DNA of 64,000 bases from Dastarcus helophoroides (lineage: Eukaryota; Arthropoda; Insecta; Coleoptera; Bothrideridae): positions 32,952,431 to 33,016,430 of the forward strand of contig CM053326.1 of NCBI GenBank assembly GCA_028583605.1, written 5' to 3'. The translations under genes and the position numbers were made by a program. The notes beneath the pieces are model-generated. The model made no database searches. It was not told the DNA's origin and worked only from the letters and a program-made list of their open reading frames with translations. This document shows, in pieces, positions 561 to 62,087 of this stretch. Each line of letters starts with the position of its first letter. The first letter of the stretch is position 1.

Positions 561-1055
561 GTGCCCGAGAATAGAATTTTGAGAGAAACTTCACAATTTT
601 AACTTACGTGAAGATAAAGTCGAAATTTCGAAAAGTAAGCCAAAACTTCAAAAAAGCTTTCAAAAGTAACTCAAATTAGAATTTCGTAACATTTTATGTT
701 TTAAACTTTTGCATTAAATCCTAAACATCCAAAAGAAAATCTGATATATTTCTAAAAAATGTTTCTTTCATAATTGCAAACTTGAAGTGAAATTTTCGAC
801 ATTTGAGGTCCAATTTTAAATTTAAAATCGCAATTTTAATTTTAAAATCAAACACTAGAAATACAAATTAAAAAAGCATCATCTTAACAAAACATGATCT
901 TTTAAGAAAATTTTTGTTCAACAAAATTTAGAGTTCATATCGAAATTTCGATTTAAAAAGCTTAAATATTATATATTTTAAGTTTTAAGTCAAAATTTTA
1001 ATATAGTTTTGAGTTTAAAATCGAGTCATATACCGGAAACACATCATCATCACAC
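561..1055. other. Low-complexity AT-rich filler
   Basis: Degenerate AAATTT/CGAAATTTCG-rich sequence of mixed strand polarity between two retroelements. No gene or RNA is visible. Confidence 0.6.
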
Positions 1056-2352
1056 GTCCTAAATTCTAAACACTTTGTCGAATTGTTGTCCCAATTAACC
1101 CTAGACCCCAACGACATACTGGTGAGTTTTGACGTCACTTCACTATTCACTAATGTTCCAGTTTTCGACTCCATGACGATAATTCGTCAATTACTTTCAG
1201 GCAATGAGAATTCAGATTCTCTTGTTGATTTAACCGAAATGTGCCTCACATCAACTTATTTTTCTTTCAATGGCAGCTTCTATAAACCAGTCTCCGGCAC
1301 CCTAATGGGTTCCCCCTTATCCCCAGTCGCAGCAAATATGTTCATGGAATCTTTTGAAAACACTGCATTGGAAACTGCGGATTTAAAACCCAAGATTTGG
1401 CTTCGTTATGTAGATGACACATTTATTGTATGGCCACATGGCAACGATTCACTAAATTTATTTTTGGAACACCTAAACAGTTTACATTCTTCCATTAGCT
1501 TCACTAAGGAAATCGAAAGAACGGTTCTCTTCCTTTTCTTGACGTACTGGTCACCCGTTTACCAAACGGTAGGGTTTCTCATTCCGTTTATCGAATACCC
1601 ACCCAAACTAATCGTTATTTGCATGCAGAGTCCCATCATCACCCTTCCCAAAAACGTTCTGTCATAAATTCACTGGTTTCACGAGCTGTAGCAATTTCAC
1701 AACCGATAAATCTTTCAGACGAGTTGAACAAAATTCGTCTCAACCTCCGCAACAATGTTTACAAATCGCACGACATTGAAACTGTCATTAAACGACATTG
1801 TCACCCTACCTCTCGTCCTTGACACAATTCAATAATCTCTTCTAAAGCCTTTCTTCCTTATGTTCACGGAGTAACAGATCAAATCGGAAAATTATTGAGA
1901 AAACACAACATTAAACCCATTTTTTCATCATCCTCAAAGATCCAATAGCTCCTCCCATCTCCCAAAGATAAAATTTCATCCTTTTGTTCTAATGGTGTGT
2001 ACAGGGTTCCTTGTTCTTGTGGTTCAGTGTACATCGGAGAAACGGGGCGATCATTTAAGACGCGAATATCCGAGTACCAAAGATGTCTTAGGTCTGGTTT
2101 ATTTTCGCAGTCAGCCATTGCGGAACATCAACATGAGGCCGGACATAAGATTCTCTTTGATAATATTTCAATTATATCCAATATTTCCAATTACTATAAT
2201 AGTAAGATCGGCGAAGCCATTGAAATCCAAAAATTCCCCAAAAACGACGGTTACATGTTTTCTTCCATCTGGAAACCAATCATCGGAAATCTTCGGGAGT
2301 GATCGCGCAGACGAATGGTATATAAATGTTTCCCTTTCTTTCTTTCCTCTCT

Positions 2353-2490
2353 GAAGAGTTTCGCCTCTGGTATGGTGGACATACTGAGTTACCGTGCTCT
2401 TCTGTCTAAACTTTCTTATCCTTTGTACCAATTTTCATTTCAGAAGAGTTTCGCCTCTGGTATGGTGGACATACTGAGTTACCGTGCTCT
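2353..2490 (+). repeat. Two identical 48-bp direct repeats, period 90
   Basis: Positions 2353-2400 and 2443-2490 are identical, starting GAAGAGTTTCGCCTCTGG and ending ACCGTGCTCT, in the 3' non-coding part of the Penelope-like copy. The inverted copy at 36499-36635 carries the same two-fold arrangement, so the duplication predates both insertions. Confidence 0.9.
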
Positions 2491-8455: not shown

Positions 8456-10095
8456 ATCCTCGTCATTTTCTTCTTCCGATCCTCCGTCGCCTTGATACTT
8501 CTTTTTTCTTTTGCGCTGCTTATCACACGTGAAACTTGCCTTCTTCTTTTTTTTTCAATATATTCTTACTTTTTATCTTTAGAGTCTTCTGTTCCTCCTG
8601 TTCCTTTTTTTTCTTTTGTTCATCCACCACTTGGTCTTTATAAGGAGTGCTGGTTAAAATAACTGTTCATACAGATTTTCTTGCTTTGCTGTGTTTCGTT
8701 TTTGTGTCATTTTTGGAAATGGATAAATATCATTGGGTAAAACCTTAAGCTCTATTGAAACATTTAAACTTGAAGGGGCCTCAATATTATCAAGATGTGT
8801 GACATCATCAAGAACTGAGTAAGTGGATGGGTTTTCTTTTTGCTTGTCATTTTCCAAATAAATCAAATCTGATTCTATCTGTTTAAACTGATTTGGGTGT
8901 TCTGACTGGGTGACTGTTCAGGAGGCGTGGATGAACGTATTTCATCATTATGGTGATTACTATCTTCAATTTGGAACAAATTTTCTGTAATAGCAGATTG
9001 AATTTGTTTTGTAACTTTAGCAGCTGCAAAGTTAAAGTCACAAAATACCTCTGGGTTATAAGGAACAATAGCAGCCTTTCTAAAACCATTAATAGCATTC
9101 ATTGGTGCACATGCTTTTATATATGATATGATAAAAATCTTTGAGATTTGAAAAGCAATGACCACTCTTCTAGGGTTGTTAGTCAACCAATTTTCAAGAG
9201 CCTGGTCATGATAGTGGTTAAGTGGATACATAAAACTGAGATCAAGGGGCAGTAATTTGTGGGTAGTATGAGGGAGGAGACATAAAATGGTTACATAATT
9301 AGAGCGAGCCTTTTCAATAACATTTAAATTCTTTGTATGTGGAAGGTGGCCATCAATTAATAAAAGGACTGGGTCTTCCAATGTTGGTTTTGCATAATGT
9401 AAAAAATAATCAAACCAATCCGTAAAAACTTCAACATTCATCCTTTTTCTGGAGATATTTAACATTGGTGGAAAAAAGGTGCCGCCGGCTGACATAGAAA
9501 TTACAGCAGTACTGGAAATACCTCGTTCAGCGGAGACGACTTTTCCAACCTGTCTTTGTCCTCTTTTTGCAAGAACTTTGTAGTTTTTACTTGGAACAGT
9601 ACTCACATATGTCTCATCTACATTAAAAATTCTATGCGGGGAAAAATGTGTTTTATCTAATATGTCCTTAAGCAGCTCAAAAACTTTTTCAGTATTTAAG
9701 GTCGAGCTTTCATTAGACCAGCTATTGAAAGCTCGAGCTCGAGCTGTTGATGTTGCCTCAGGTGATCGTAACGCGAGTTCAGGGTGCCGATTCCCAAAAC
9801 CAGTAAACCAGTCTTTATCAGCAAGTTTTGTCTCTTTGAAGAATGGATGATCAATCCCATTTTTTTCTGGGAGCTGATTTGCCGATCTTACGTCTTTAGT
9901 GGTAAGGCCATACATTCTGACCTCCGTGTCAACAATGTACTTTACAAACTCTTTTTCTTGATCTTCGGTAAATACCTTAGTTTTGCTACCAAGTTTTTTA
10001 AATTGATTGATTGCTAATTTGTTTTGCCCCTGACAACGTCTTTTTAAACTCATTAGCGGAACCCGAAATTTCTCGCCGCCAAATAATAGCGGCAT
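8456..10095 (-). pseudogene. pogo/jerky-type DDE_1 transposase, main part
   Basis: An uninterrupted frame of 406 codons runs from 10095 to 8875. Near its N terminus FRVPLMSLKRR resembles the end of a psq-type helix-turn-helix; the first helices are missing, so the true start is upstream or lost. A CENP-B-like binding region follows (DKDWFTGFGNRHPELALRS, residues 93-111). The DDE_1 catalytic core is intact by motif: D160 in FNVDET, D248 in LLIDGH, D285 in LPLDLSF. A stop after SLNR at 8875 is bypassed in another frame, where IESDLIYLENDK through LPNDIYPFPKMTQKRN (8866 to about 8680) continues the usual tail. A basic then acidic stretch (KRKKKYQGDGGSEEENDED) reaches the Tc1-like insertion at 8455. 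The core looks young, but the frameshift, the insertion and two stops beyond it make it nonfunctional. Confidence 0.88.
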
Positions 10096-10205
10096 CTTCG
10101 GTGATTATAGTAAGTACTATAATCATAGATGTCTTCGTCAGTATTAAAATATATGGGTAGGGATCATTTTACCTGTAGGGATCATTTTGGGCCACTTTCC
10201 CCTAC

Positions 10206-25194: not shown

Positions 25195-27606
25195 CTTCCC
25201 CGACTACATTGAAAGCGAAAATATCCAAAATCAGTCAGAGGAGCGCATACATTGCCTCGCTGGCCGAACAAAAAACCTATCAAAAAGAATTTTCACTAAA
25301 ATAAAAATACAATGGGCGGTAAATTCTTTTAAGCCCTACAAATCACCAGGCGAAGAAGGAATCTTCCGAGCCCTGCTGCAAGAGAGTCTAACGGAGCTTA
25401 TGACTCCACTAACTCAACTATTTACAGCTAGTTATTGCCTGAGGATATTCCTCAAACCTGGAGGGAAGTAAATGTGGTTTTCATCCCAAAGGCTGAAAGT
25501 CGATCAAACGCCCAGCCCAAATCTTATAGACCTATTAGCCTAACTCCATTTTTCTTTAAAACAATGGAGAAAAGCCTTACATAACCTCATAAAGAGGATC
25601 GAAAAGGCACTTACAGCAAAAGGAATTTCTCTTTGTGCATTCTTGGATATAGAGGGCGCCTTCGACAACGCCCCATACGAATCCATAAAAAGAGCTGCAC
25701 AAAACAATGGCTTTGAAACAACAACAACCGAGTGGATACAATCCATGCTTAAAGGAAGAAGAATCAAAGCAAACTTCGGAGGGGACTCAGCAACGGTGAC
25801 TGCGGTAAAGAGCTATCCTCAAGGAGCAGTAATATCGCCCCTACTATGGTCTATTTTTTTGAACGATGTCCTTCTAAAGTTACACAATTCAGGCTTTAAA
25901 ACGCAGGCAAATGCTGATGACATTGTCGTCACTGTAAGGGGAAAGCATGACTGAGTTATATCAAACCTGATTCAAACCGCCCCAAATATCATCACTAATT
26001 GGGGCTGGAAGGAAGGCCTAAGAGTCAACCCAAACACAGCAGCTAATATTCCATTCACTAAAAGAAGGAAGTTCTCATTTATAGCTACCATCATGAACGG
26101 AGTACAAATTGGCTTCTCAAGTGAGACAAAATACCTAGGTTTAATGCTTGACCCGAAACTTAGTTGGAACACACACCTGACAAAGGTAGTCGAACGTGCA
26201 ACAGTGGCAAACTGGACTTGTCCTAGACACCTTGGAAAAGCCTGGGAACTGAACCCCAAAATGATCTACTGGTCTTACCTGACGGTTATCAGACCGCTGG
26301 TTACCTACGCCTCGTTAGTGTGATGGCCAAAAGCAAAAGAAAAAACATCAAAAGATAAACTTGCAAAAGTACAACGTTTAGCATGTCTTCAAATTACAGG
26401 AGCAATGAAAACTTGTCCAACTGCAGCTCTGGAAGTCACGCTGAATTTCCCCCTTTTACATCTATAGGTAAAGAGGTTAAGAAGGAGGCAATTCTGGGGG
26501 TCTTAAAACCGGGTCAGGAAGTAGATCTGAAGTAAGGAGACTCTAGCGGACACATGAGTATTCCCAAAGAATTTGTGTCATCGGCAACGATAAAACCGGT
26601 TGATACAATAGAAACCAGGCTGGAGTTCGAACACTCATTTGAAGTGATCTTAAATGATCACCAAAAAAGTGGGATTGACCAAAAACCTAAAATACTGCCA
26701 AGGATCACTTCTCTGGTAGGCGAATGGGTTAAAAACAGCAGAAGGAGTTGCGGGCGGCGTATGTGGCCCAAGATAAAGGTTAACAAAAGCCTTAAGTCAA
26801 ACTCCCACAGTCTTCCAGGCAGAAGTACATGCCATAGAACTATGCACTCGAGAATGTCTATCGGAGGACTTGCCAGGAGCAAAGATCTAAATCTGTTCAG
26901 AGTGTCAAGCGGCGCTTAAAGCTCTGAGTAGCTTTACTGTCAAATCCATACTAGTGTGGAACTGTCTAAAAATACTAAAACAGTTAGCTGTCCGCAACAA
27001 AGGAACCTTGATGTGGGTGCCAGCATACATAGGTATTAAAGGAAATGAGATTGCCGATCCCCTAGGCATAGAAGTTGCAGCATCCCCATTTCTTGGACCC
27101 GAACCTTACTTTGATATAGTAAAATTCCATATAAGAAATGAAGTCCACAAATGGGAGGAGAAACAAAAAGAATCCCACTGGAAATTAATTTCAGGACAAA
27201 ACCATGCGAAAAAGTTCATCACATATTCGCACACCAAGACGAAAGAACTTCTCTACCTCAGCAAACCGGAGTTAAGGTTAATAACAGATTTTCCCACAGG
27301 ACACTGCGCACTAAAATGCCATCTCAAAAAGATAGGCTAAGCGGAGTGAGAGACTTGCCGCTTCTGCAAAGAAGCCAAGGAAACTTACAGGAGACTACTT
27401 TACCTAGAACAGGTACAAGTTATACCTGCAGAGATAAGTAAAATTTCTCCTATAAAAAGCCTAGGTTGGGAATTCAGGAACAATATATATATATATATAT
27501 CGCCGTTTATCAAACCAGATCTTTAAGGTCGCAGTGATGAGAGGAATGTACATATTCTGTCCGACCCATATCATATCTAATCTAATCTAATCTAATCTAA
27601 TCTAAT
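25195..27606 (+). pseudogene. RNase H-bearing LINE, 5'-truncated copy 2 (longer)
   Basis: The copy begins before the reverse transcriptase palm: FKPYKSPGEEGIF (about 25330), VNVVFIPKAESRS, KSYRPISLTPFF. A deletion near 25575-25585 removes the usual 'HP..NQ.AY..GKST' segment and joins TMEKSL to LHNLIKRIEKAL. AFLDIEGAFDN, SYPQGAVISPLLWSIF, and ANADDIVVTV (25912-25941) follow. The catalytic box reads NADD where the family has YADD. The region then matches copy 1: MNGVQIGFSSETKYLGLML, NPKMIYWSYLTVIRP, a broken RNase H domain, MWVPAYIGIKGNEIAD, and a final AT-rich end. The 3' tail is (ATCTA)n with at least five units at about 27573-27606. Multiple stops and frameshifts are present. Confidence 0.88.
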
Positions 27607-36376: not shown

Positions 36377-37995
36377 GCGTTTCGCCCACCATCGTAGGGG
36401 GCTTTTTCAGGAACAAAGAAAAGAAATAATAAATAAAAAGGGAAATTTAGGGAATATGCAAAAATTAAAGAATGAAAAGGCCAATTTCAAAACATGAGAT
36501 CACTGTAACTCAGTATGTCCACCATACCAGAGGCGAAACCCTTCTGAATTGAAAATTGGTACAAAGGATAAAAAAGTTTGGACAGAAAAGGCACAGTAAG
36601 TCAGTATGTCCACCATACCAGAGGCGAAACTCTTCTGAGAGGAAAGAAAGAAAGGGAAACTTTATATACCATTCAGTCTGCGCGATCACTCCCGAAGATT
36701 TCCGATGATTGGTTTCCAGGTGGAGCAAAGCATGTAACCATCGTCTCTGTTGATGTTTTTGGGGAATTTTTGGATTTCAATGGTCCTCGCGTATCTTCCT
36801 ATTATAGTAATTGAGAATATTGGATATAATTGAAATATTATCAAAGAGAATCTTGTGTCCGGTCTCATGTTGATAGTTCCGCAATGGCTGACTGCGAAAA
36901 TAAACCAGACCTAAGACATCTTTGGTGCTCGGATATTCGCGTCTTCAATGATCGCCCCGTTTCTTCGATGTACACTGAACCACAAGAACAAGCAACCCTG
37001 TACACACCATTAGAACAAAAGGATGAAATTTTACCTTTGGGAGATGGGAGGAGCTATTGGATCTTTGAGACTGATGATTAAAATGGGTTTAATGTTGTGT
37101 TTTCTCAATAATTTTTCGATTTGATCTGTTACTCCATGAACATAAGGAAGAAAGGCTTTAGAAGAAATTATTGAATTTTCTGAAGGACGAGAGGTAGGGT
37201 GAAGATGTCGTTTAATGAGAGTTTTAATGTCGTGCGATTTATAACAATTGTTGCGGAGGTTGAAACGAATTTTGTTCAACTCGTCGGAAAGATTTATCGG
37301 TTGTGAAATTGCTACAGCTCGTGAAACCAGTGAATTAATGACAGAACGTTTTTGGGAAGGGTGATGATGGGACTCTGCATCCAAATAGCAATTAGTATGG
37401 GTGGGTTTTCGATAAACGGAATGAGAAACGCGACCGTTTCGTAAACGGGTGACCAGTACGTCAAGAAAAGGAAGAGAACCGTTGTTTTCGATTTCCATAG
37501 TGAAGCTAATGGAAGAATGTAAACTGTTTAGGTGTTCCAAAAATAAATTTAGCGAATCCTTGCCATATGGCCACACAATAAATGTGTCATCTACATAACG
37601 AAGCCAAACCTTGGGTTTTAAAACCGAAGTTTACAACGCAGTGTTTTCAAAAGATTCCATGAAAATATTTGCTACGACTGGGGATAAGGGGAAACCTATT
37701 GGGGTGCTTGAGACTTGTTTATAAAAGCTGCCATTGAAAGAAAAATAAGTCGATGTGAGGCACATTTCAGTTAAATCAACAAAAGAATCTGCATTCTCAT
37801 TGCCTGAAAGTAATTGACGAATTATCGTCATGAAGTCGGAAACTCGAACATTAGTGAATAGTGAAGTGACGTCAAAACTTACCAGTATGTCGTTGGGGTC
37901 TAGGGTTAATTCGGACAACAATTCGACAAAGTGTTTAGAATTTACGAAGTATCTATGGTAATTTTTGTATGATTCTAGTTTTGTAAATTTGACTT
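36377..37995 (-). pseudogene. Penelope-like retroelement, second copy, inverted
   Basis: Reading leftward from about 37990: KLESYKNYHRYFVNSKHFVE, SFDVTSLFTNVRV, a palm segment GFPLSPVVANIFME, then after a frameshift near 37630 LRYVDDTFIVWPYG. The next 180 codons are open: FLDVLVTRLRNGRVSHSVYR, SQKRSVINSLVSRAVAIS, LSDELNKIRFNLRNN. The GIY-YIG domain follows in another frame (CSCGSVYIEETGRS; YIGET is changed to YIEET) and breaks up near 36870. The 3' end carries the two 48-bp repeats (36499-36545 and 36590-36635) and the degraded hammerhead-like motif (36377-36410). This copy keeps more of the RT-endonuclease linker than the one at 1056-2660. Confidence 0.9.
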
Positions 37996-38168
37996 TTCTC
38001 AGTGGCGTATTATTTTAATCATTCTACTGACACTTCAAATATTTTGACGCTATCAGAAAACTTTCGCAATTTTTAAAGACTTCAAATTTTTTCGATCTAT
38101 ACATAGATGCACTTGCAATATCTACCTAAATTGATCAATAGTTAGTTATTTTTTATATTTTATTGTAG

Positions 38169-41100
38169 GCATCAAGGGACAAAAAGTTCTTGATTGATCA
38201 GCATGTCAAAACAATACGCCACATTCTGAAAATAAGATGAAGGGATCAAGTAGTTCGCATCGAGAAACTATCGAGGAATCTTTGGTGCCGAGAACGAAAC
38301 AATCTTGTCAGGAACAGTTTAATCAAGATTTGTGCCAAGCACTAATTGAAGCAGACATTCCTCCACATAAATTAAAAAACGAAGGATTTCGAAAATTTTT
38401 GGCGCAATATTGTGCATTCCGCATTCCCGATGAAAGCACACTGAAGAAGAGGTATGTTAAAATTTTTTATTGTGAAACAGTTTATTTAAAAGGTGTTTTT
38501 AGTTTTTCGATTACTGTTCAAAAAACGCCAAGAAGTCATAAAAACGAAAATTCAAAATTTTACCTTTTTTCAGAAATATCAAGAACAGCAAGAAATATTT
38601 TCGATTACTCAACGGAATATTACTGTTTGCCAAATTGTGTAACTTTTCCATAATTTAATTGATGCTGTATCTTTTACCGTTTTTGAGTTACCTGTAATGA
38701 GAAGTGAATTTGTTACCAGCTGTATACGTAGTGGCCAGACACATGAGTTGTCTCATCAACACGGTGTTTACTCCGATGATTTTCTGGATTTAAGAAATGA
38801 TTATCTCAAAATAACAGTTTTCAACATACCCTTTTCTTAATGTGCTTTTATCAGGAAGATTGAAAGTGCAAGATTGCTTCAAAAATTCTTCAAATCCATG
38901 ATTTTTTAATTAGTGCAAGCGAATATCAGCTCTAACTAGCGCTTGACAGAGGTCTTAGTTAAAGCGTCTCTGCGCAGTTTGTTGGTTTGAATGTATTAAA
39001 GATTCCCTTAGTTTGTTGATGTGAATAGGTGATTTTCCATCAGATTTTGAGATTTCCTAATATGGTCTGATGTTTTAATGTGTTGATCGGTCAAGAATTT
39101 TCTGTCACCTGATATCTACAATAAAAAATTGAAGTAATAATAAAATAAATTATGACACGATTGAAATGTATAAATTTTTTTTGGTAATATCGGAGGTACT
39201 TTTTGACGAGTTGGAAAGGTTGACAATTTCTATATGAGTACAAAAGGAGAAACTTTATTAACTAACGTTTTGCATAAAAAGTTTCTCCCAGCACTTTTAA
39301 AAGAAAAATGCACCATGCAACCATCGCATCGCGTCGATTTAATTCACACCAGTGTATCTTTCTGACTGCTGAAATAATAATGTACACCGTGGGCCTAAAA
39401 AAAATGTCCACATTTATTGGGTTGAATTATTTTGTTATTCGTAACTTGTTTCTTACCAAATTCTCACCAACAATACAATAATGTATAAGCTTTTAGGGAC
39501 TCAGAGCAAAAGTCTTTTAATCAATTTTTATACAGAGAGCCTCGCTGATATTTGTCACTTTGTGTGTTTCGCAAAACAACTACAAATTTGCATTAACCCA
39601 GTTTAATTATGTATTAAGAAGACTAACATCTTCTGAGTGTATCTTTTTTTATTTTTTGAAATACTCTGATTCTAATCAATTTTATGGCCATTTTAGTGAA
39701 ATCGTGCACAATAACAACATTTTAGTAAAAATTTCGTGAACCCTTTTAAAACAATCAAATGCGTTTTCTTGAATGCGCTATGCATGTGTATTATTAACTG
39801 AAGGAAGTTCCATTTTGAGGAAGAAATAAATAGTCAAGTTAATAATACATCATCAAATCTGCAAAACACTTTGGTTTATATAACATAAACTGCTCAGATT
39901 AAATTTACATCACTCACATGAAAGTAATTATGAAAAGAAAGATTTCATATCTATGGTTATAAAGTGGGTATTTGTTTGGCCCATCGGTTGTTGCATATCT
40001 TTCATTCGTTAATATTACATCAGTTACACTTTAAAAAATTTTAGTTTTATCCACTGTTTCAAGACTTAAATCTTCATGTTTCAGCAAAATCAAAGTTCAT
40101 GCAACAAATCTCTCCGGGGGTCAAGTTTTAGCAATCCATGAAGAATCTCAGTTCACAGAATTTTCATCCTCCGTTTTTATGAATGAGGAGCTCTTGGAAA
40201 TGGATAGCGAGAATATAGAAGAAGTGAATGACAGCACGTCTGGAGTTTCAGAAACCAGGACAGACTTTCTAAATCATCGCAGGTTGCTGTCATACCATTT
40301 CAAAAGATTCCTGCTTTTATTTACAATGAAAGACCTAAATCTTCATGTTTCAGCAAAATCCAAGTTCCTGACACGAATTGCTCCGAAGGTCAAGTTTTGA
40401 TTACTCATAACAAATCTCAATCCTTAGAATTCGCATCCTCCGTTTTTATAAAACAGGAGCCTTTAGAAATAGACAGCGGTTATATGGAACAAAAGGAAGA
40501 CAGTACGTCTGGTGTTTTAGAACTCAGGACAGATTTTCGAAATTATCATAGGTTGCTATTATGTCATTTCAAAAAATGTATGCTTCCATTTACAATTAGA
40601 AACCTAAATCTTCATGTTTTAGCAAAACCAAAGTTCCTACCACGACTTCCTCCGGAGGTCAGGTTTCGGCCACTCATAAAAAATCTCAATCGTTAGAATT
40701 TGCATCCTCCGTTTTTATAAAAGAAGAGCCTTTAGAAACAGATAGCGGGCATATGATAAAAAATGAATACAGTACTTCTGGATGTTCAGAGCCCAGGACA
40801 GATTTTCGAAATCATCATAGGTTGTCATTACATTACTTCAATCACTTCAAAAGATTTCTAGTTTCATCCAGAGTTAAAGACCGACATCTTCATGTTTCAG
40901 CAAAACCAAAGATTCTACCACGAATTTTTCCGGAAGTCAAGTTTTAACAGCACAAGAAACATCTCAATCCTCAGATCTGTCATCATCCCGTTTTTATAAA
41001 AGAGGAACCTCTAGAAGCAGACAGCTGGCATATGCAAGAAAAGTACTGTCTGAATTTTTAAAGCCAAGGGTAGATTTTAGAAATCATTATAAGTTGGTGT

Positions 41101-43925
41101 TACGTAACCTCTGATGTTTGATTTCATTTATAGTTAAAGATTTAAATCTCCATATTTCAGTAAAACCAAAGTTTCCTACCACGAATTCCTCTGGAAATAA
41201 AGTTTTGGCAACTTATGAAGTATCTCAATCTGCAGAATTCTCATCTTCGGTTTTTATAAAAGAGGAAGCTTTAGAAAAAGACAGCCAATATGTAGAGTTA
41301 AAGAAAGACAGTATGTCTGGATTCTCAGCACCTCGAAGTTATCACAGGTTACTGTTACGTGACTTCAAAAGATGTCTGGTTTCATCCAGAGTTAAAGACC
41401 TAAATTTTCATGTTTCAGCAACACCAAAGAGTATATTACGAATTCCTCCAAGGGTCAAATTTTACCAACCAATCAAGGGTCTGAAGATTTAGAATTTTCA
41501 TCCTCCGTTTTCATAAAAGAAGAACCTTTAGAAATAAACAGCGGGCATATGGATAAAAAGGAAGACAATACGTCTGGATTTTCAGAGCGCAAGACAGATT
41601 TTCAAAATCATTACAGGTTGCTGTTACATCATTTCAACTGGTTTCATCCAGAGTTAAAAACTTAGATATTCATATTTCAGCAAAACGAGAGTCCCTATCA
41701 CGAATTCTTTCGGAGAACAAACTTTGTCAACCCATGAAGTATCTCAATCCTCAGAATTTGCATCTTCCGTTTTTATAAAAGAGGAGCCTTTAGAAATAAA
41801 CAGCGAGAATATGGAAGAAAAGGAAGACAGTACGTGTAGATTTTCAGAGCTCAGGCCAGATTTTCGAAACCATTACAGGTTGTTGTCACATCACTTTAAA
41901 AGATTTTTGTTTAATCCAGAGGTTAAAAACATCATATTTATATTTCAGCAAACCCAAAGTTCCTACCACAAATTCCTTCGGAGATCAAGATTTGTCAACC
42001 CATGAAGAATATCAATCCTCAGAATTTGCATCCTCCGTTTTTATAAAAGAGGAGCCTTTAGAAACAAACAACGAGTATATAGAAGAAAAGGAAGGGAATA
42101 CGTTTGGATTTTCAGAGCTCAGGCCAGATTTTTCAAACCATTACAGGTTCCTGTCACGTCACTTTAAAAAATGTTTGGTTTAATCCAGGGTTAAAAACAC
42201 ACATATTCATATTACAGCAAGGCGAAAGTCCCTACCACAAATTTCTTCAAAAATCAAGTTTTGTCAACCCATGAACTATCTCAATCCTCAGAATTCGCAT
42301 CCTCCGTTTTTATGAAAGAGGAGCCTTTAGAAACAAACAACGAACATATGGAAGAAGAGGAAGAGGGTACTTTTGGATTTTCAGAGCTCAGGCCATATTT
42401 TCGAAACAATTACAGGTTGCTGTCACATCACTTCAAAAGATTTCTGGTTTCATCTAGAATTAAAGACCTAAATCTGCATGTTTCAAAGTTAAAAACCCAC
42501 ATATTTATATTTCAGCAAGGCGAAAGTTCTTACCACAAACTTCTTCAGAGATCAAGCTTTGTCAACCCATGAAGTATCTCAATCCTCAGAATTTCCGTCC
42601 CCCGTTGTTATAAAAGAGGAGCCTTTAGAAAAAAACAGCGAATATATGGAAAAAAAGGAAGACAGTACTTTTGGATTTTCAGAACTCAGGCCAGATTTTC
42701 GAAACAACTACAGGTTGCTATCACATTATTTCAAAAGACTTCTGGTTTAATCCAAAGTTAAAGAGCCACATATTCATATTTCAGCAAACCCAAAGTCCCT
42801 ACCACAAATTCTTTCGGAGATCAAGCTTTGTCAACCCATGAAGTACCTCAATCCTCAGAATTCGCATTCTCCGTTTGTACGAAAGAAAAGCCATTAGAAA
42901 CAAACAGCAAGCATATAGAAGAAAAGGAAGACAGTACATTTGGATTTTCAGAGCTTAGACCATATTTTCGAAACAATTACAGGTTGCTGTCAAATCACTT
43001 CAAAAGATTTCTAATTTCGTTTAGAATTATAGACCTAAATCTGCATGTTTCAGCAAAATCAAAGTTCCTGTCATGAATTTCTCCGAATGTCGAGATTTGG
43101 CTACCAATGAGAAACCTCAATTCTCACAATTGTCATCCTCCGAGGACAAAAATGAGGAGATTTTAAAAAAAGGGAAACCTTTAGAAGCAGACAACGAACA
43201 TTTGAAACAAGTGGAAGACAGTGCGTCTGGATTTTCAGAGACCAGAACAGATTTTCGAAATCATCACTGGTTACTGTTACATTAGTTGAGTCTAAATCTC
43301 ATCCGCTCATAATTTTTCTCACCATTTGGCAACCATTATTATTTAATTTGCAATTCATCTTGTCTTTGATTCTAATACAGTTTACATTTTAATGATTGGT
43401 GTACCTAAAATCCAGTTGTTCGCAAATGATGCGTGAAATTGTTAGTCACTGATAACACATCATTTGCTCTTCAAAATACTAAAGTTCATTTAGATTTTAC
43501 TTCCAGCCTAACTTTTCGTGTTTCAGCAAAGCCAAAATTCCTACCGAGATATCCCCCGAGGGTCAAGTTTCGGCAACCAAGGAAGAACCTCGCTCAGAAT
43601 TCGCTCCCTCCGTGGTTAAAAACAAGGAAGTTTTCACAAAAGAGGAGCCTTTAAAAGCAGACAGCGAGCATATGGAAGAAACGGAAGACAGTACGTCTGG
43701 ATTTTCAGAACCCAGAACAGATTTTCGAAAGCATCACTCGTACACTGATGTTGTCCAGCTGTTGCATCAGTTGATGGCCAGGCAGAAAACCCCAAGGGAG
43801 GATGACTATGGAAACAAAGAGTTTTTGCTCTCGTTTCTGCCTATGATGAATGAGCTATCCAAGGAGGAAAATTTAAGAGTCAGGGCTAGAATTTTAGAGG
43901 CTTTTAGGGAGTGATGTTAAATAAA
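38169..43925 (+). CDS. BED/CGBP1-like and BESS-motif gene with a 13-copy tandem exon module
   Basis: Gene model from splice sites: first visible coding exon 38237-38451 (similarity begins at 38169 after an acceptor TATTGTAG), twelve tandem internal exons between 40085 and 43269, and the terminal exon 43527-43914 with AATAAA at 43920-43925. The first exon ends AAG AAG AG and every internal exon starts with C and ends with two bases of a codon (usually AG), so all junctions are phase 2 and rebuild a Ser codon (AGC). Proteins with BESS motifs are mostly nuclear transcription cofactors in insects, and CGBP1/BED-like domains bind DNA; a chromatin or transcription role is inferred. Exons 5' of 38169, including the first zinc-binding cysteines, are expected but not found. 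The protein could range from about 200 residues (no internal exon) to over 900. Confidence 0.78.
38237..38451 (+). CDS. First visible coding exon: BED/CGBP1-like domain C-terminal part
   Basis: The frame gives FNQDLCQALIEADIPPHKL, then GFRKFLAQYCAFRIPDESTL, ending KK plus two bases of a codon. 'F..DLC.A...ADIP..KL.N..FR.FL..Y....IP.ESTL' is a recognisable CGBP1-like block of insect BED/hAT-derived proteins. The donor is AAGAG|GTATGT. Just upstream, 38169-38230 encodes in another frame KKFLIDQHVKTIRHILK, which matches the 'QH..T.KH' end of a BED-type finger. So either the exon starts at 38169 and a 1-nt frame slip lies near 38228, or translation starts at the ATG at 38237. A short upstream frame opens at 38204 (ATGTCAAAACAA). 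Confidence 0.75.
38452..40084 (+). other. Intron before the tandem exon array
   Basis: It begins GTATGT and ends with CTTCATGTTTCAG. The last 40 bases already resemble the short introns of the array. No additional exon was recognised inside. Confidence 0.6.
40085..40282 (+). CDS. Tandem exon 1 (198 nt)
   Basis: Acceptor CATGTTTCAG|C, donor CGCAG|GTTGCT. Open in phase 2. It starts KIKVHATNLSGGQV; the core reads FMNEELLE, so the SUMO-type lysine is replaced by Asn. Confidence 0.75.
40354..40551 (+). CDS. Tandem exon 2 (198 nt)
   Basis: Acceptor CATGTTTCAG|C, donor ATAG|GTTGCT. Open. The core FIKQEPLE keeps the psi-K-x-E pattern. Confidence 0.78.
40623..40820 (+). CDS. Tandem exon 3 (198 nt)
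   Basis: Acceptor CATGTTTTAG|C, donor ATAG|GTTGTC. Open. Core FIKEEPLE; ends EPRTDFRNHH. Confidence 0.78.
40901..41092 (+). CDS. Tandem exon 4 (192 nt), middle frame-shifted but restored
   Basis: One base is gained near 40989 and a net seven are lost near 41046-41060, so the length is still a multiple of three and no stop appears. The central 20-odd residues are read in another frame (FYKRGTSRSRQLAYARK, basic instead of acidic) and the IKEEPLE core is lost. The end returns to frame as RVDFRNHY. The donor is weakened to TAA|GTTGGT. Confidence 0.6.
41161..41347 (+). pseudogene. Tandem exon 5 (187 nt), out of frame
   Basis: An extra T near 41173 and a 12-nt deletion near 41332-41340 give 187 nt, not a multiple of three. 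In the phase used by the other exons an in-frame stop (TAA) appears at about 41198-41200. The FIKEEALE core survives only in another frame. Inclusion would truncate the protein, so it should be skipped or is a dying exon. Confidence 0.7.
41419..41616 (+). CDS. Tandem exon 6 (198 nt)
   Basis: Acceptor CATGTTTCAG|C, donor TACAG|GTTGCT. Open. Core FIKEEPLE; ends ERKTDFQNHY. Confidence 0.78.
41681..41878 (+). CDS. Tandem exon 7 (198 nt)
   Basis: Acceptor CATATTTCAG|C, donor TACAG|GTTGTT. Open. First member of a second subfamily (LSTHEVSQSSEFASS); core FIKEEPLE. Confidence 0.78.
41949..42146 (+). CDS. Tandem exon 8 (198 nt)
   Basis: Acceptor TATATTTCAG|C, donor TACAG|GTTCCT. Open. Core FIKEEPLE; ends ELRPDFSNHY. 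Confidence 0.78.
42218..42415 (+). CDS. Tandem exon 9 (198 nt)
   Basis: Acceptor CATATTACAG|C, donor TACAG|GTTGCT. Open. Core FMKEEPLE; ends ELRPYFRNNY. Confidence 0.78.
42516..42713 (+). CDS. Tandem exon 10 (198 nt)
   Basis: Acceptor TATATTTCAG|C, donor TACAG|GTTGCT. Open. Core VIKEEPLE. The preceding 100-nt intron has two acceptor-like 3' parts in tandem, the first spoiled (CATGTTTCAA), marking a recombination joint between two intron types. Confidence 0.78.
42785..42982 (+). CDS. Tandem exon 11 (198 nt)
   Basis: Acceptor CATATTTCAG|C, donor TACAG|GTTGCT. Open. The core is changed to CTKEKPLE. Confidence 0.77.
43054..43269 (+). CDS. Tandem exon 12 (216 nt), divergent
   Basis: Acceptor CATGTTTCAG|C, donor ACTG|GTTACT. 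Open, with 18 extra bases and the core changed to ILKKGKPLE. Ends ETRTDFRNHH. A longer intron (257 nt) separates it from the terminal exon. Confidence 0.72.
43527..43914 (+). CDS. Terminal exon: module copy 13 fused to a BESS motif
   Basis: Acceptor CGTGTTTCAG|C. The first two thirds are a divergent copy of the module (KAKIPTEISPEGQVSATKEE; core FTKEEPLK; SGFSEPRTDFRKHH). Where the internal exons have a donor, this one continues into SYTDVVQLLHQLMARQK and then DDYGNKEFLLSFLPMMNELS and RVRARILEAFRE, which fits a BESS motif (FLLSLLP...L....R...R..I...) of MADF/BESS proteins. Stop TGA at 43912-43914; AATAAA at 43920-43925. Confidence 0.85.
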
Positions 43926-58164: not shown

Positions 58165-59030
58165 ATTTTCCAATATATCTACAAACTTTGTGAATTCTTC
58201 AAAGCTTATTCCTACTTGCTATGTTCTTCATCCATTCATCTTAACTGAGCAAATTCCCTTTCTTCCTTGGAAAATCTTTTCTTAGAAGGGTCTTTTTTAG
58301 GAGTCGCTTTTGTCACTCTTTTGACTACTTCATCTGATAAATTGATGATGCTGCCTTCTGCTATTGGTTCGCATTTTTCACTAAGGAAAAAAATCAAATT
58401 TCAGTCAGTTTGGAACATTGCAATATTTTCAGTTTTAGCAAAAATGTATTGACATTTTTCTAACTAAATCATTAAACCATGGGAAATATCTTCATGGTGA
58501 AAAATGCGAACCAATAGCAGAAGGCAACATCATCAATTTATCAGATGAAGTTTGCTATGTTCTTGATCCATACATTTTAACTGAGCAAATTCCCTTTGTT
58601 CCTCCAAGGAAAATCCTTTCTTAGAAGGGTCCTTTTAGGAGTCGCTTTTGTCACTCTATTGACTACTTCATCTGATAAATCGATACTATTGGTTCGCATT
58701 TTTCACTAAGGAAAAAACATCAAATTTCAGTCAGTTTGGAACATTGCAATATTTTCAGTTTTAGCAAAAATATATCGAAATTTTTGTAGCTAAATCATTA
58801 AACCATGGGAAATATCCTCATGGTGAAAAATGCGAACCAATAGCAGAAGGCAGCATCATCAATTTATCAGATGAAGTAGTCAATAGAGTGACAAAAGCGA
58901 CTCCTAAAAGGACTTTTCTCAGAAAGGAGAAATTCCCAAAGTTTGTAGATATATTGGAAAAGAAAATTAAATCTAATAGAGTAATCGAATGTCAAAAAGA
59001 AAAGTTATTGAAGTGTCTAAGACATCACTT
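58165..59030. repeat. Two tandem fold-back units with a coding-like arm
   Basis: Unit 1 (about 58165-58550) and unit 2 (about 58551-59030) start with near-identical text (TTGCTATGTTCTT at 58217 and 58551). In each, a left arm (CTTCATCTGATAAAT ... GGTTCGCATTTTTCAC) and a right arm (GTGAAAAATGCGAACC ... ATTTATCAGATGAAG) are inverted, separated by a loop TAAGGAAA...TCATG. The rightmost arm reads as protein: KCEPIAEGSIINLSDEVVNR, TKATPKRTFLRKEKFPKFVD, KLLKCLRHHLW. The parent gene is not recognised. Confidence 0.75.
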
Positions 59031-59988: not shown

Positions 59989-62087
59989 CTAATTATTATT
60001 TATCCACGGACTGACTAACCATTCAGATATTGATTCAATTACCGGAATGATAGATTCCTTTTGTTTCTCTTGAATCTCTTCAATTTTTTCAATATCAATA
60101 TCTTCATTGTCGTACCATTCTATATCATGGGTATTATTATTGTATGATGTAAGACACAGGTTCTGTCCAGCACGATGACGCAATAATTTAATAGGATGAA
60201 AATTCTCAGTACGAGCACACTGGTACTTGTGAACTGATTGACGATGGATTTTCACATTTTTATTTGATGCAAAGTACAATCCACATGTTGGACATGTACG
60301 TGCAATCAATTGCGTTTGAACCGTAGAACAATAAAAGTCGTATGGTGTTAAAATAAAATCTGGGCGGCTAGGAATTTCAATGTTTAGAGATAATTGCACA
60401 AATAAAGGACAAAAATTAGCATTTGCTTGGTCTTTAGGAAGTGGTATATCTAAAGTTTGCGCTTGTCGAAGAGGATAAGGTGGTGGAATAAATCCATCTG
60501 GTAATATCATTCGCAAATTACTTCGTAATTTTCCACAGCATCTAAATTCTGTGCATTTGCTAATTTGCAGTAAATACTGAGATTCTCTTACATGTCTACA
60601 GTACCAATCAGGAGTCCATTCCACTAAACTTCTATCAATATTATCACTACCAGGATCTACGTATTCAGCAACAACTAGCTTATCATCAATAATTAACTTA
60701 CTCCATATTTGCACTAAACTATCACCAGCCATTTTGAAATTTTTGAGTTCAAGTTCATTATCAATTGTACGTCGCTGATCATCAAGATGATTACCAAAAG
60801 AATCATACGGTAAGACAAGTCCAGATAATTGATGACTCAATGGAGCCATTCTACGCTCTACTCGATTGAAGCAACTTCTTCCGGGAGCGTTAGTGATAAT
60901 AAATATAGCATCAAGATCAAATTTACGAAAGTGGGAAACAGCATGAGAGATGACTTGAGGAAAGCGTGGATTTTCATCAGGTCCTCCGTCAACAGTCATG
61001 ATTATAACTGGTTTTATATTATTATAATCTGTTTTGGCCAGGGATTGAAATTCTGCTAGCTCCATAAGATGTTCTAGATCGATGCTATGAGTGCGTGCAG
61101 ATGATGATGAATGTTTTCCTGATCTGATTGCAACGTACGTAGGTCCACTGTATGTCACTGCTTCAGGTTTGCCCTTAATTTCAATTCCAGCATATACTGA
61201 AGGTATTAATTTATTTTTTTCTGCCACCACCCAGTCGTGATCTGGTAGTCGTACTCGATATTCCATATGCATCAGAAATGGTGCTTGTTTTTCTACAGCA
61301 GTTTTACCAATTGGAATGCGCGCTTTGTCGTCCTGTGACAAGAAGAAAACCTGAGCAGGCCCAAGCATGGAGGCGAGAGTCAGTGCAAAATTTATCATCG
61401 GGATGGCTTTTGTGTTCATCATTTGTTGCTCTCGCCAGTTTTACCCGAACTGTTACTACGTGTTTTTTTCCTTGAATTGTAGTAGAACATCTAGGTAAAA
61501 GACGAAGATACGTAGCACTTCGTAATAGATTGACCAAGTCATCTAGAGTTCTACAGCTTCTTACCATTTCAGTTCGGAGTTTCTTATCTGCACCAACTCC
61601 AAAGCTCGCAATTTCTGCTAAAACTTTCGACAGCTCAGGTTGAGCTTCCTCCAAACGAGGGCGACCCACTGTCTCGTGCACATTTAATTGTTGTTTTACA
61701 ACTGGATTCTTAATAACATCTTTTATCAATGCCTGTCTTTTTTTTCTGAAACTTTTTTGATATTTAGCGTTTCGTTTTTCATTAGCAAGTTGTTTTTTAG
61801 CTTCACCAAGGTTTTTTTTTTTGCGATTTATTGATTTCTTGATTGACCTTGAGTCCTCCAAGACCAGAATCCCGACGTAAAATACTTGTGTTTAATTCAC
61901 TCTCCACCAATGAAATATTTTTTTCAATTGCATCTTGTGCTGGAGTAGGATGACATGTTAATTGTGATTTATCAGAAATCGCCTCTTTTGGAATCAGTCT
62001 ATGCGCTATATCGACTTCTCTAGTGCATAATGCGACAGAAGAATCTATTGAGTTTTTGTCCATCAAAGCAAGCGGTCCAACAGACAT
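59989..62087 (-). pseudogene. Broken DDE-type transposase with C-terminal C2H2 finger
   Basis: Three overlapping frames join into one protein of about 700 residues. The first (62087-61803, from MSVGPLALMDKN) meets the second (61861-61304) at an A11 tract (61812-61822 on the plus strand as T11), where a one-base change joins KSQKKK to NLGEAKKQ. The second holds a Lys-rich part, then ATYLRLLPRCST and VTVRVKLARA, and passes to the third (61422-59989) by a frameshift near 61385 after KFCT. The third starts LASMLGPAQVFFLSQDDKAR and carries the likely catalytic residues D31 or D32 (SQDDKAR), D145 (TVDGGPDENP) and E189 (FNRVERRMAPLS), D-to-E spacing 43. A zinc finger CPTCGLYFASNKNVKIHRQ(x)3H follows near residue 370-390. 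I recognise the family (cnidarian and insect genomes) but not a settled superfamily name. Confidence 0.82.

Follow-up and report, generated by a model that had tools for sequence, protein, structure and literature searches.

The Drosophila proteins BEAF-32A and BEAF-32B carry a BED-type N-terminus, a middle linker and a C-terminal BESS domain for subunit contact, with two N-termini set against one common exon for the middle region and BESS (PMC5021357). According to the parts of that study on which we draw, BESS alone mediates contact between BEAF molecules, the middle region is essential, and a flexible spacer is one explanation its authors offer. Here we describe a gene of similar layout at 38237-43914 of a 64,000-nucleotide stretch of DNA (C2:32952431-33016430; the window), whose linker is encoded by an array of homologous exons. 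Judged from its sequence, the array is a tandem exon duplication with a traceable birth from the terminal exon, in a gene that fuses a hAT-derived exon to a BESS exon. All genome searches covered the 538.9-Mb assembly with its 50 contigs. The genome is probably that of an insect, to judge from its MADF/BESS genes and from the reverse transcriptase beside the gene, whose best named relatives are insect proteins. We found no earlier description of this arrangement in the open-licence literature, which is no proof that none exists.

An array of thirteen linker modules

Thirteen homologous copies of one module lie at 40085-43914, twelve as internal exons (e1 to e12) and one in the terminal exon (e13). 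The original prediction had placed thirteen copies there, with a period mostly of 258-298 bp, an acceptor and a donor for each internal copy, and nine exons of 198 nucleotides (nt) beside three of 192, 216 and 187 nt. All of this was recovered. The gene and its array consist of the following features:

38237-38451, + strand: exon 0, with the ATG at 38237, a hAT (Hermes-type) DNA-binding domain and the donor after 38451
40002-40084, + strand: end of intron 0, whose stretch 40008-40084 is similar to the array introns, starting at their GT
40085-40282, + strand: module exon e1, 198 nt
40354-40551, + strand: module exon e2, 198 nt
40623-40820, + strand: module exon e3, 198 nt
40901-41092, + strand: module exon e4, 192 nt, two internal frameshifts, donor AA|GTTGGT
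41161-41347, + strand: module exon e5, 187 nt, one net frameshift
41419-41616, + strand: module exon e6, 198 nt
41681-41878, + strand: module exon e7, 198 nt
41949-42146, + strand: module exon e8, 198 nt
42218-42415, + strand: module exon e9, 198 nt
42516-42713, + strand: module exon e10, 198 nt
42785-42982, + strand: module exon e11, 198 nt
43054-43269, + strand: module exon e12, 216 nt, retaining an 18-nt segment of e13 and the paralogues
43527-43914, + strand: terminal exon e13, in which the linker (module) runs straight into BESS; stop TGA
43920-43925, + strand: AATAAA polyadenylation-type signal, 5 nt past the stop, aligned too in the paralogue L057

The acceptor positions are the first coordinates of e1 to e13; one chance pattern match at 40132 is left out. 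From acceptor to acceptor the spacings are 269, 269, 278, 260, 258, 262, 268, 269, 298, 269, 269 and finally 473 bp. A typical unit of about 269 bp is made of a 198-nt exon and a 71-nt intron; introns measure 64-100 nt and the last one (intron 12) 257. Pairwise identity reaches 66-88% between exons and 61-90% between introns 1-11. Since exon and intron are both similar across copies, the duplication unit is the exon plus its intron. Homologous exons thus stand in tandem within one gene, each with its splice sites.

This array appears to be the only one of its kind in the genome. With the module as query (E<=1e-3) we obtained 12 matches, all in this array, while e4 and two diverged paralogue linkers were missed. 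The linker-BESS part of a paralogue (E<=1) matched e6, e7, e8, e12, e13, two paralogous terminal exons and a MADF-BESS gene. Within the sensitivity of these two queries, no second array was found. The exon tree is mostly unresolved; e7-e11, e9/e10 and e2/e3 group together, and no branch is starred.

AG acceptors and GT donors flank every internal copy, and all sites are of the GT-AG type. Exon 0 ends in phase 2 at the donor GAG|GTATGT (U1 complementarity 7/9), and the module copies share its phase. On the exon side the donor reads AG in 10 of the 12 copies, the others being e4 (AA|GT) and e12 (TG|GT). At least 6 of 9 positions match U1 in 9/12 array donors and in 6.1% of the 2772 GTs of the window, a comparison in which the copies are not independent. 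The original prediction had a phase-2 junction reading AG|C, a serine, at every step of the array. The phase is indeed common to exon 0 and e13; the serine is lost at the end of e4, the junction of e4 with e5 does not conform, and the end of e12 gives a cysteine.

Ten of the twelve internal exons are open and frame-neutral, which supports the predicted exon array for an acidic linker in a putative BESS-type nuclear factor. The claim of frame neutrality holds for these ten. It fails for e5, where one extra base near the start and a 12-nt loss mean that inclusion leads to a stop within 14 codons, and the middle of e4 is read outside the module frame owing to changes of +1 and -7. Frame-breaking changes, which the prediction itself had named as evidence against it, are therefore present in e5 and in part in e4, but not in the other ten copies. 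Exon 0 (71 open codons) and e13 (129) together form a 200-amino-acid open reading frame, and exon 0 with all copies except e5 gives 930 amino acids. When all 13 copies are joined, a stop appears at codon 347, the first of 19. Because of the frame break in e5 and the damage to e4, full inclusion cannot yield a complete protein. None of the 12 intermodule introns has a length divisible by three; hence the array makes sense only when spliced.

The nine 198-nt copies carry 13-41 substitutions each relative to their consensus, yet no stops (joint P 3.5e-4 under random placement), and no insertions or deletions (indels) where 11.4 are expected at the intron rate (P about 1e-5); both probabilities treat as independent copies that are not independent. 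The intron rate corresponds to 5 length changes, counted from the lengths of introns 1-11. At this rate 2.4 changes are expected in the 379 nt of e4 and e5, against 4 counted from lengths and alignment. There is constraint on the nine 198-nt copies, and none is visible on their neighbours e4 and e5. Over the 36 pairs of these nine copies, the ratio of nonsynonymous to synonymous substitution rates (dN/dS) spans 0.24-1.00, with 0.53 as the median. By this measure, constraint on the modules is weak.

The terminal exon and the origin of the array

The terminal exon encodes an acidic linker and a putative BESS motif. The gene had been predicted to be BED-like/BESS, a name that needs qualification: exon 0 is the domain that follows BED in hAT transposases, and the BESS (PF02944) of e13 scores 20.9 bits against the Pfam cut-off of 21. 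In the paralogue L057 it scores 25.4 bits. Predicted on its own, without an alignment, e13 reaches a mean predicted local distance difference test score (pLDDT) of 60.9, with a linker free of secondary structure and helices at 73-86, 94-102, 105-108 and 113-128; this quality is too low for a search by fold. A search of solved structures gave no match at E<=10.

The BESS part has three other matches in the genome: the paralogues L057 (C13:2824526, 71% identity) and L058 (C13:13658503, 63%), and the MADF-BESS gene L060 (47%; MADF 27.0 bits, BESS 27.9 bits). Both paralogues are laid out like e13, with an acceptor, an acidic linker and BESS in one uninterrupted stretch, and no second module copy was found in the 1.6 kb upstream of L057 or the 1.1 kb upstream of L058. 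Because two paralogues are undivided and free of an array, linker and BESS in one exon looks like the ancestral state. Their BESS parts give dN/dS values of 0.15 (e13-L057, 165 nt), 0.24 (e13-L058, 120 nt) and 0.12 (L057-L058, 120 nt), and the frame of L058 is broken by a shift close to its end.

Two THAP exons precede L058 (THAP E 1.8e-16 on the joined reading), the nearer one about 0.55 kb away. The donor of this nearer exon, TT|GTAAGT, is in phase 2 like that of exon 0 and leads onto the same phase-2 acceptor. An upstream partner exon of L057 was not found within 1.6 kb. From these comparisons, the e13-type terminal exon is probably ancestral and used behind different DNA-binding exons. On contig C13, the THAP exons and the linker-BESS terminal exon follow each other at C13:13658480-13660000 (L058/L062), and at C13:2822700-2832400 the other paralogue lies about 7 kb from the MADF-BESS gene on the opposite strand (L057-L060).

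The array introns can probably be traced to intron 0. Its end (40008-40084) matches the unit profile from the intron GT onward (nhmmer E 3.6e-5) and scores 57.0 where shuffled sequences reach at most 27.4; for the 80 nt that precede e13 the two values are 32.8 and 24.9. Further upstream there is no similarity (three controls, z -0.3 to -1.2). In view of these matches, the 71-nt introns are probably copies of the parental intron's end, and their donors an intronic GT that was brought up against the linker end. The new introns are thus homologous to the 3' end of a parental intron, and the probable intron-free ancestral state is represented, within this genome, by L057 and L058.

From sequence comparison we conclude that tandem duplications spanning the last acceptor are the probable source of the internal exons, whose donors would have formed at the duplication junctions. 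The starting form would have been a terminal exon with linker and BESS undivided. A segment that starts about 77 nt ahead of the last acceptor and stops where the linker ends would then have been duplicated in tandem. This would join a coding end to an intronic GT, which becomes the new donor, and each duplication would yield a complete, frame-neutral internal exon. At the presumed duplication ends, 40002-40009 (TCATTCGT) agrees with 43734-43741 (TCACTCGT) in the terminal exon at 7/8 bases; these ends were chosen by eye, and random placements reach at least 7/8 in 95/141570 cases.

The copy e12 alone among internal exons has the 18-nt segment found in e13 and the paralogues. Its donor, TG|GTTACT, stands between the TC|GT found at the same place in e13 and the AG|GT of ten copies. 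For both reasons e12 was probably the first copy and is probably the oldest internal one. A derivative without the 18 nt would subsequently have been amplified into e1-e11.

BESS coding sequence as the main source of the intron 5' ends was considered and rejected: whole BESS coding was equalled in 100/300 shuffles, and the match to the ends of the introns that precede e1 and e13 is far stronger. With a 53-nt piece of BESS coding, the score equalled the shuffled maximum (1/300, z 2.9). Intron by intron, p was 0.008 for intron 12, 0.016 and 0.042 for introns 6 and 11, and 0.13-0.998 for the other nine. For intron 12, BESS coding may still be a source. A weaker signal came from the start of intron 0 (6/300, z 2.1).

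Exon 0 and its surroundings

Sequence comparison establishes exon 0 as homologous to the DNA-binding domain of this genome's hAT transposons. The 71-amino-acid piece has 50 genome matches, comprising itself, an inverted copy in intron 0 and 48 others. We examined 28 of these 48 by eye, and all 28 continue into a hAT-type transposase reading (..DETTD..), which at L030, L032, L033, L041, L049, L050, L053 and L054 is interrupted by a frame slip or by stops. Three hAT copies (L048, L026 and L024) were scanned with Pfam for domains including DUF659, which we take to be part of hAT transposases. In L048 a BED half, the exon 0 domain and DUF659 (E 8.2e-11, above cut-off) share a single 280-amino-acid frame; the DUF659 match in L026 is below cut-off (E 0.0027) and L024 has none. 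Like the hAT-derived CGGBPs, exon 0 has a DNA-binding domain homologous to hAT transposons; the name Hermes-type follows PMC8097297, and the homology was established by comparison with this genome's own hAT copies.

A connected zf-BED with its Cys and His residues is absent. Two further features belong to this part of the gene:

38169-38237, + strand: BED zinc finger half (ASRDKKFLIDQHVKTIRHILKIR), after a TTGTAG acceptor, in a frame that differs from that of exon 0
38806-39129, - strand: decayed inverted copy of the BED half and exon 0, inside intron 0, with two in-frame stops

In the window an indel separates the BED half from the exon 0 domain, whereas in L048 both are in one frame. Two queries for the CxxC half of the finger found nothing in the window. 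The BED half matches the inverted copy at 65% over 20 amino acids; overall the inverted copy is 68% identical to the exon 0 region over 328 columns and keeps the donor GTATGTT of exon 0. It lies about 0.35 kb from the + copy, and the pair could fold into a long imperfect hairpin in the pre-mRNA.

At 20 hAT-copy loci a GT exactly at the donor site of exon 0 occurs in none; L048 has GTAAGT six bases further. Tandem repeats with a period of at least 60 are present in 4/20 (L033, L043, L044, L045), and the 20 loci contain no significant match to the module (best E 0.66) or to BESS (best E 0.39).

The window contains further elements. Reverse transcriptase pieces, which we take to be Penelope-like, lie at 37031-38014 (-), directly upstream of the gene, and at 1002-2354 (+). 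The first has an RVT_1 match below cut-off and 722 protein relatives. Readings at 36865-37053 (-) and 1949-2302 (+) are presumably GIY-YIG-like; Pfam found nothing in the second. A retroelement reverse transcriptase fragment (RVT_1) lies at 25544-25951 (+), and a 409-amino-acid open frame with a DDE_1 endonuclease match at 8878-10104 (-) is probably a transposase. Two long open frames overlap at 59989-61891 (-), and one of them has a below-cut-off match to C2H2; at 58216-58877 there is a two-copy tandem duplication of 326 bp with 90% matches.

Readings of the array and known systems

The linker modules carry a recurrent SUMO-type motif. The psi-K-x-E core occurs in 7/11 open modules, against a shuffled mean of 1.54, and in both paralogues. 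The least variable windows of eight amino acids are VFIKEEPL and FIKEEPLE, the latter being the conserved core. In the described synergy-control motif, psi-K-x-E is flanked by proline or glycine and limits synergy at multi-site promoters (PMC3554661, as far as the passages used here go). The corresponding form [VI]KxEP occurs in 6/11 open modules (e2, e3, e6, e7, e8 and e10).

On balance we lean towards reading the gene as a BEAF-like nuclear factor, in which serially spliced cassettes give a spacer of variable length that is rich in SUMO consensus sites. The modules may be included combinatorially, as cassettes. The copies would be spliced in series, with e5, perhaps e4, and weak-donor modules skipped. 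Between the DNA-binding/dimer domain and BESS, the spacer would then grow or shrink by 66 residues at a time, and most such steps would bring in one more acidic stretch with a psi-K-x-E SUMO-type site. The spacer would set the reach between DNA sites bridged by BESS-linked subunits, and the possible SUMO count. The full form of this idea is speculative and, in our view, rather improbable: a molecular ruler counted by splicing, where the included linker exons set reach and SUMO acceptor number and one gene makes a graded series of chromatin-bridging proteins, built in place from its last exon with each duplication a ready frame-neutral cassette.

If true, the locus holds a readable record of how a multi-exon array grew from a single terminal exon, in which duplicating a segment that spans an acceptor brings acceptor, exon and intron together and makes the donor at the junction. 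It would also offer a natural series on the role of the linker between the DNA-binding and BESS ends of BEAF-type proteins, as splicing may vary linker length here. Furthermore, a BESS terminal exon would stand behind differing DNA-binding exons, hAT here and THAP in a paralogue, by way of an intron of the same phase. The original prediction included neither the hAT descent of exon 0 nor the terminal-exon paralogues, the source of introns and donors, or the damage to e4 and e5.

Several observations weigh against the spliced-spacer reading. The splicing of the modules is predicted from sequence, and their donors have a purine at +3 in 0/12, a G at +5 only in e4, and U1 complementarity of 4-7/9. 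Modules are weakly constrained, introns are about as similar to each other as exons, e5 breaks the frame and e4 is damaged. The psi-K-x-E core is missing from e1, e11, e12 and e13, and single shuffles also reached 7. Exon 0 has no connected BED finger, which makes it doubtful that the protein binds DNA. BEAF can do without the last 40 of its 120 middle residues according to the portion of the study cited, hence spacer length may matter little (PMC5021357). Among 67 candidates no protein-database relative of the 200-amino-acid form was found (E<=0.01), and none of the 866-amino-acid form without e4 and e5 (E<=0.01; 7979 candidates sharing most words scored). As a control, the neighbouring reverse transcriptase matched the 722 proteins mentioned above, many named from insects. 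The database therefore holds insects, and the word filter misses distant relatives.

The probabilities that we attach to the alternatives overlap and are not meant to add up to certainty. The strongest alternative, which we consider less probable but serious, is that the array is a decaying by-product. The functional product would be the 200 amino acids of exon 0 and e13, an open frame that matches the layout of the paralogues, while the internal copies are mostly skipped or act as splicing decoys. Donors poor at +3 to +5, the excess of length changes in e4 and e5, the BED finger cut off and the drift of the modules (dN/dS about 0.5) make it a serious rival. Decay does not predict nine copies free of indels and stops, nor donors that match U1 so much more often than other GTs of the window (again, among copies that are not independent), with AG on the exon side in 10/12 as expected if they are used.

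A related and unlikely alternative, overlapping with the previous one, makes the whole gene a pseudogene of a hAT-BESS fusion. The out-of-frame BED half, the reverse transcriptase element directly upstream, the inverted decayed exon copy within intron 0, the lesions of e4 and e5 and the frameshift near the end of one of the two paralogues all fit a pseudogene. Against this, exon 0, ten modules and e13 are open, the BESS part has dN/dS values of only 0.15 and 0.24 relative to the paralogues, and the polyadenylation-type signal is in place.

Mutually exclusive exons of the Dscam type, to which the array had first been compared, would place exactly one module between exon 0 and e13. Ten intact internal modules have phase 2 on both sides, therefore a choice of one among many would stay in frame. 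The comparison nevertheless fared poorly. We found no docking/selector pairing that could force a single choice: for intron 0 the best mean duplex with introns 1-11 was -13.8 (shuffles: mean -15.1, best -17.2), and for intron 12 it was -11.9 (shuffles: mean -11.9, best -16.0), in a coarse and weak test with 12 shuffles per intron and 10-nt steps. All sites are GT-AG, and introns of 64-100 nt are no obvious bar to splicing from module to module. We regard this alternative as quite improbable. A tandem-repeat assembly artefact is very improbable indeed: a base error could explain the extra base in e5, but copies that differ by 12-34% are not stuttered reads, and the array sits in a 50.6-Mb contig.

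How does the locus, read as a gene with serially spliced cassettes, compare with described systems? With Dscam1 (PMC9013439, in the sections drawn on) it shares tandem exon copies in one gene; here no signal of one-of-many choice was found, and the copies probably derive from part of the terminal exon. Close in mechanism is the intron gain in a potato RdRp gene, as far as the consulted part of its description extends (PMC4974935). There, too, the duplicated segment runs from the 3' end of one intron into the 5' part of the exon behind it, and its copy creates an additional intron with inherited acceptor, branch site and tract. The potato case is a single event with splicing shown by RNA-seq and a donor from the upstream exon, whereas here there are twelve copies, splicing is predicted, and the donor GT apparently comes from the intronic end of the segment.

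The CGGBP family, independent domestications of hAT, also has a hAT N-terminal DNA-binding segment in an intron-containing gene (PMC8097297). The CGGBPs of that study have zf-BED with the Hermes domain, and the cited part of the account describes no array; in the present gene BED is severed and a BESS exon has been joined on. Host-transposase fusions (Cosby et al. 2021 as cited, in brief, in PMC12062965) likewise join the DNA-binding part of a transposase to a host regulatory domain, and the present case adds an insect-like genome, a BESS partner and an arrayed linker. The synergy-control motif as excerpted from PMC3554661 differs from the situation here, in which the motif is repeated once per exon and SUMOylation is predicted. 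Finally, BEAF-32A/B have a single middle region of 120 amino acids and an intact BED, with no array mentioned in the part of the work cited (PMC5021357), while the present gene combines a hAT domain without a connected BED with a 12-fold exon array in its linker.

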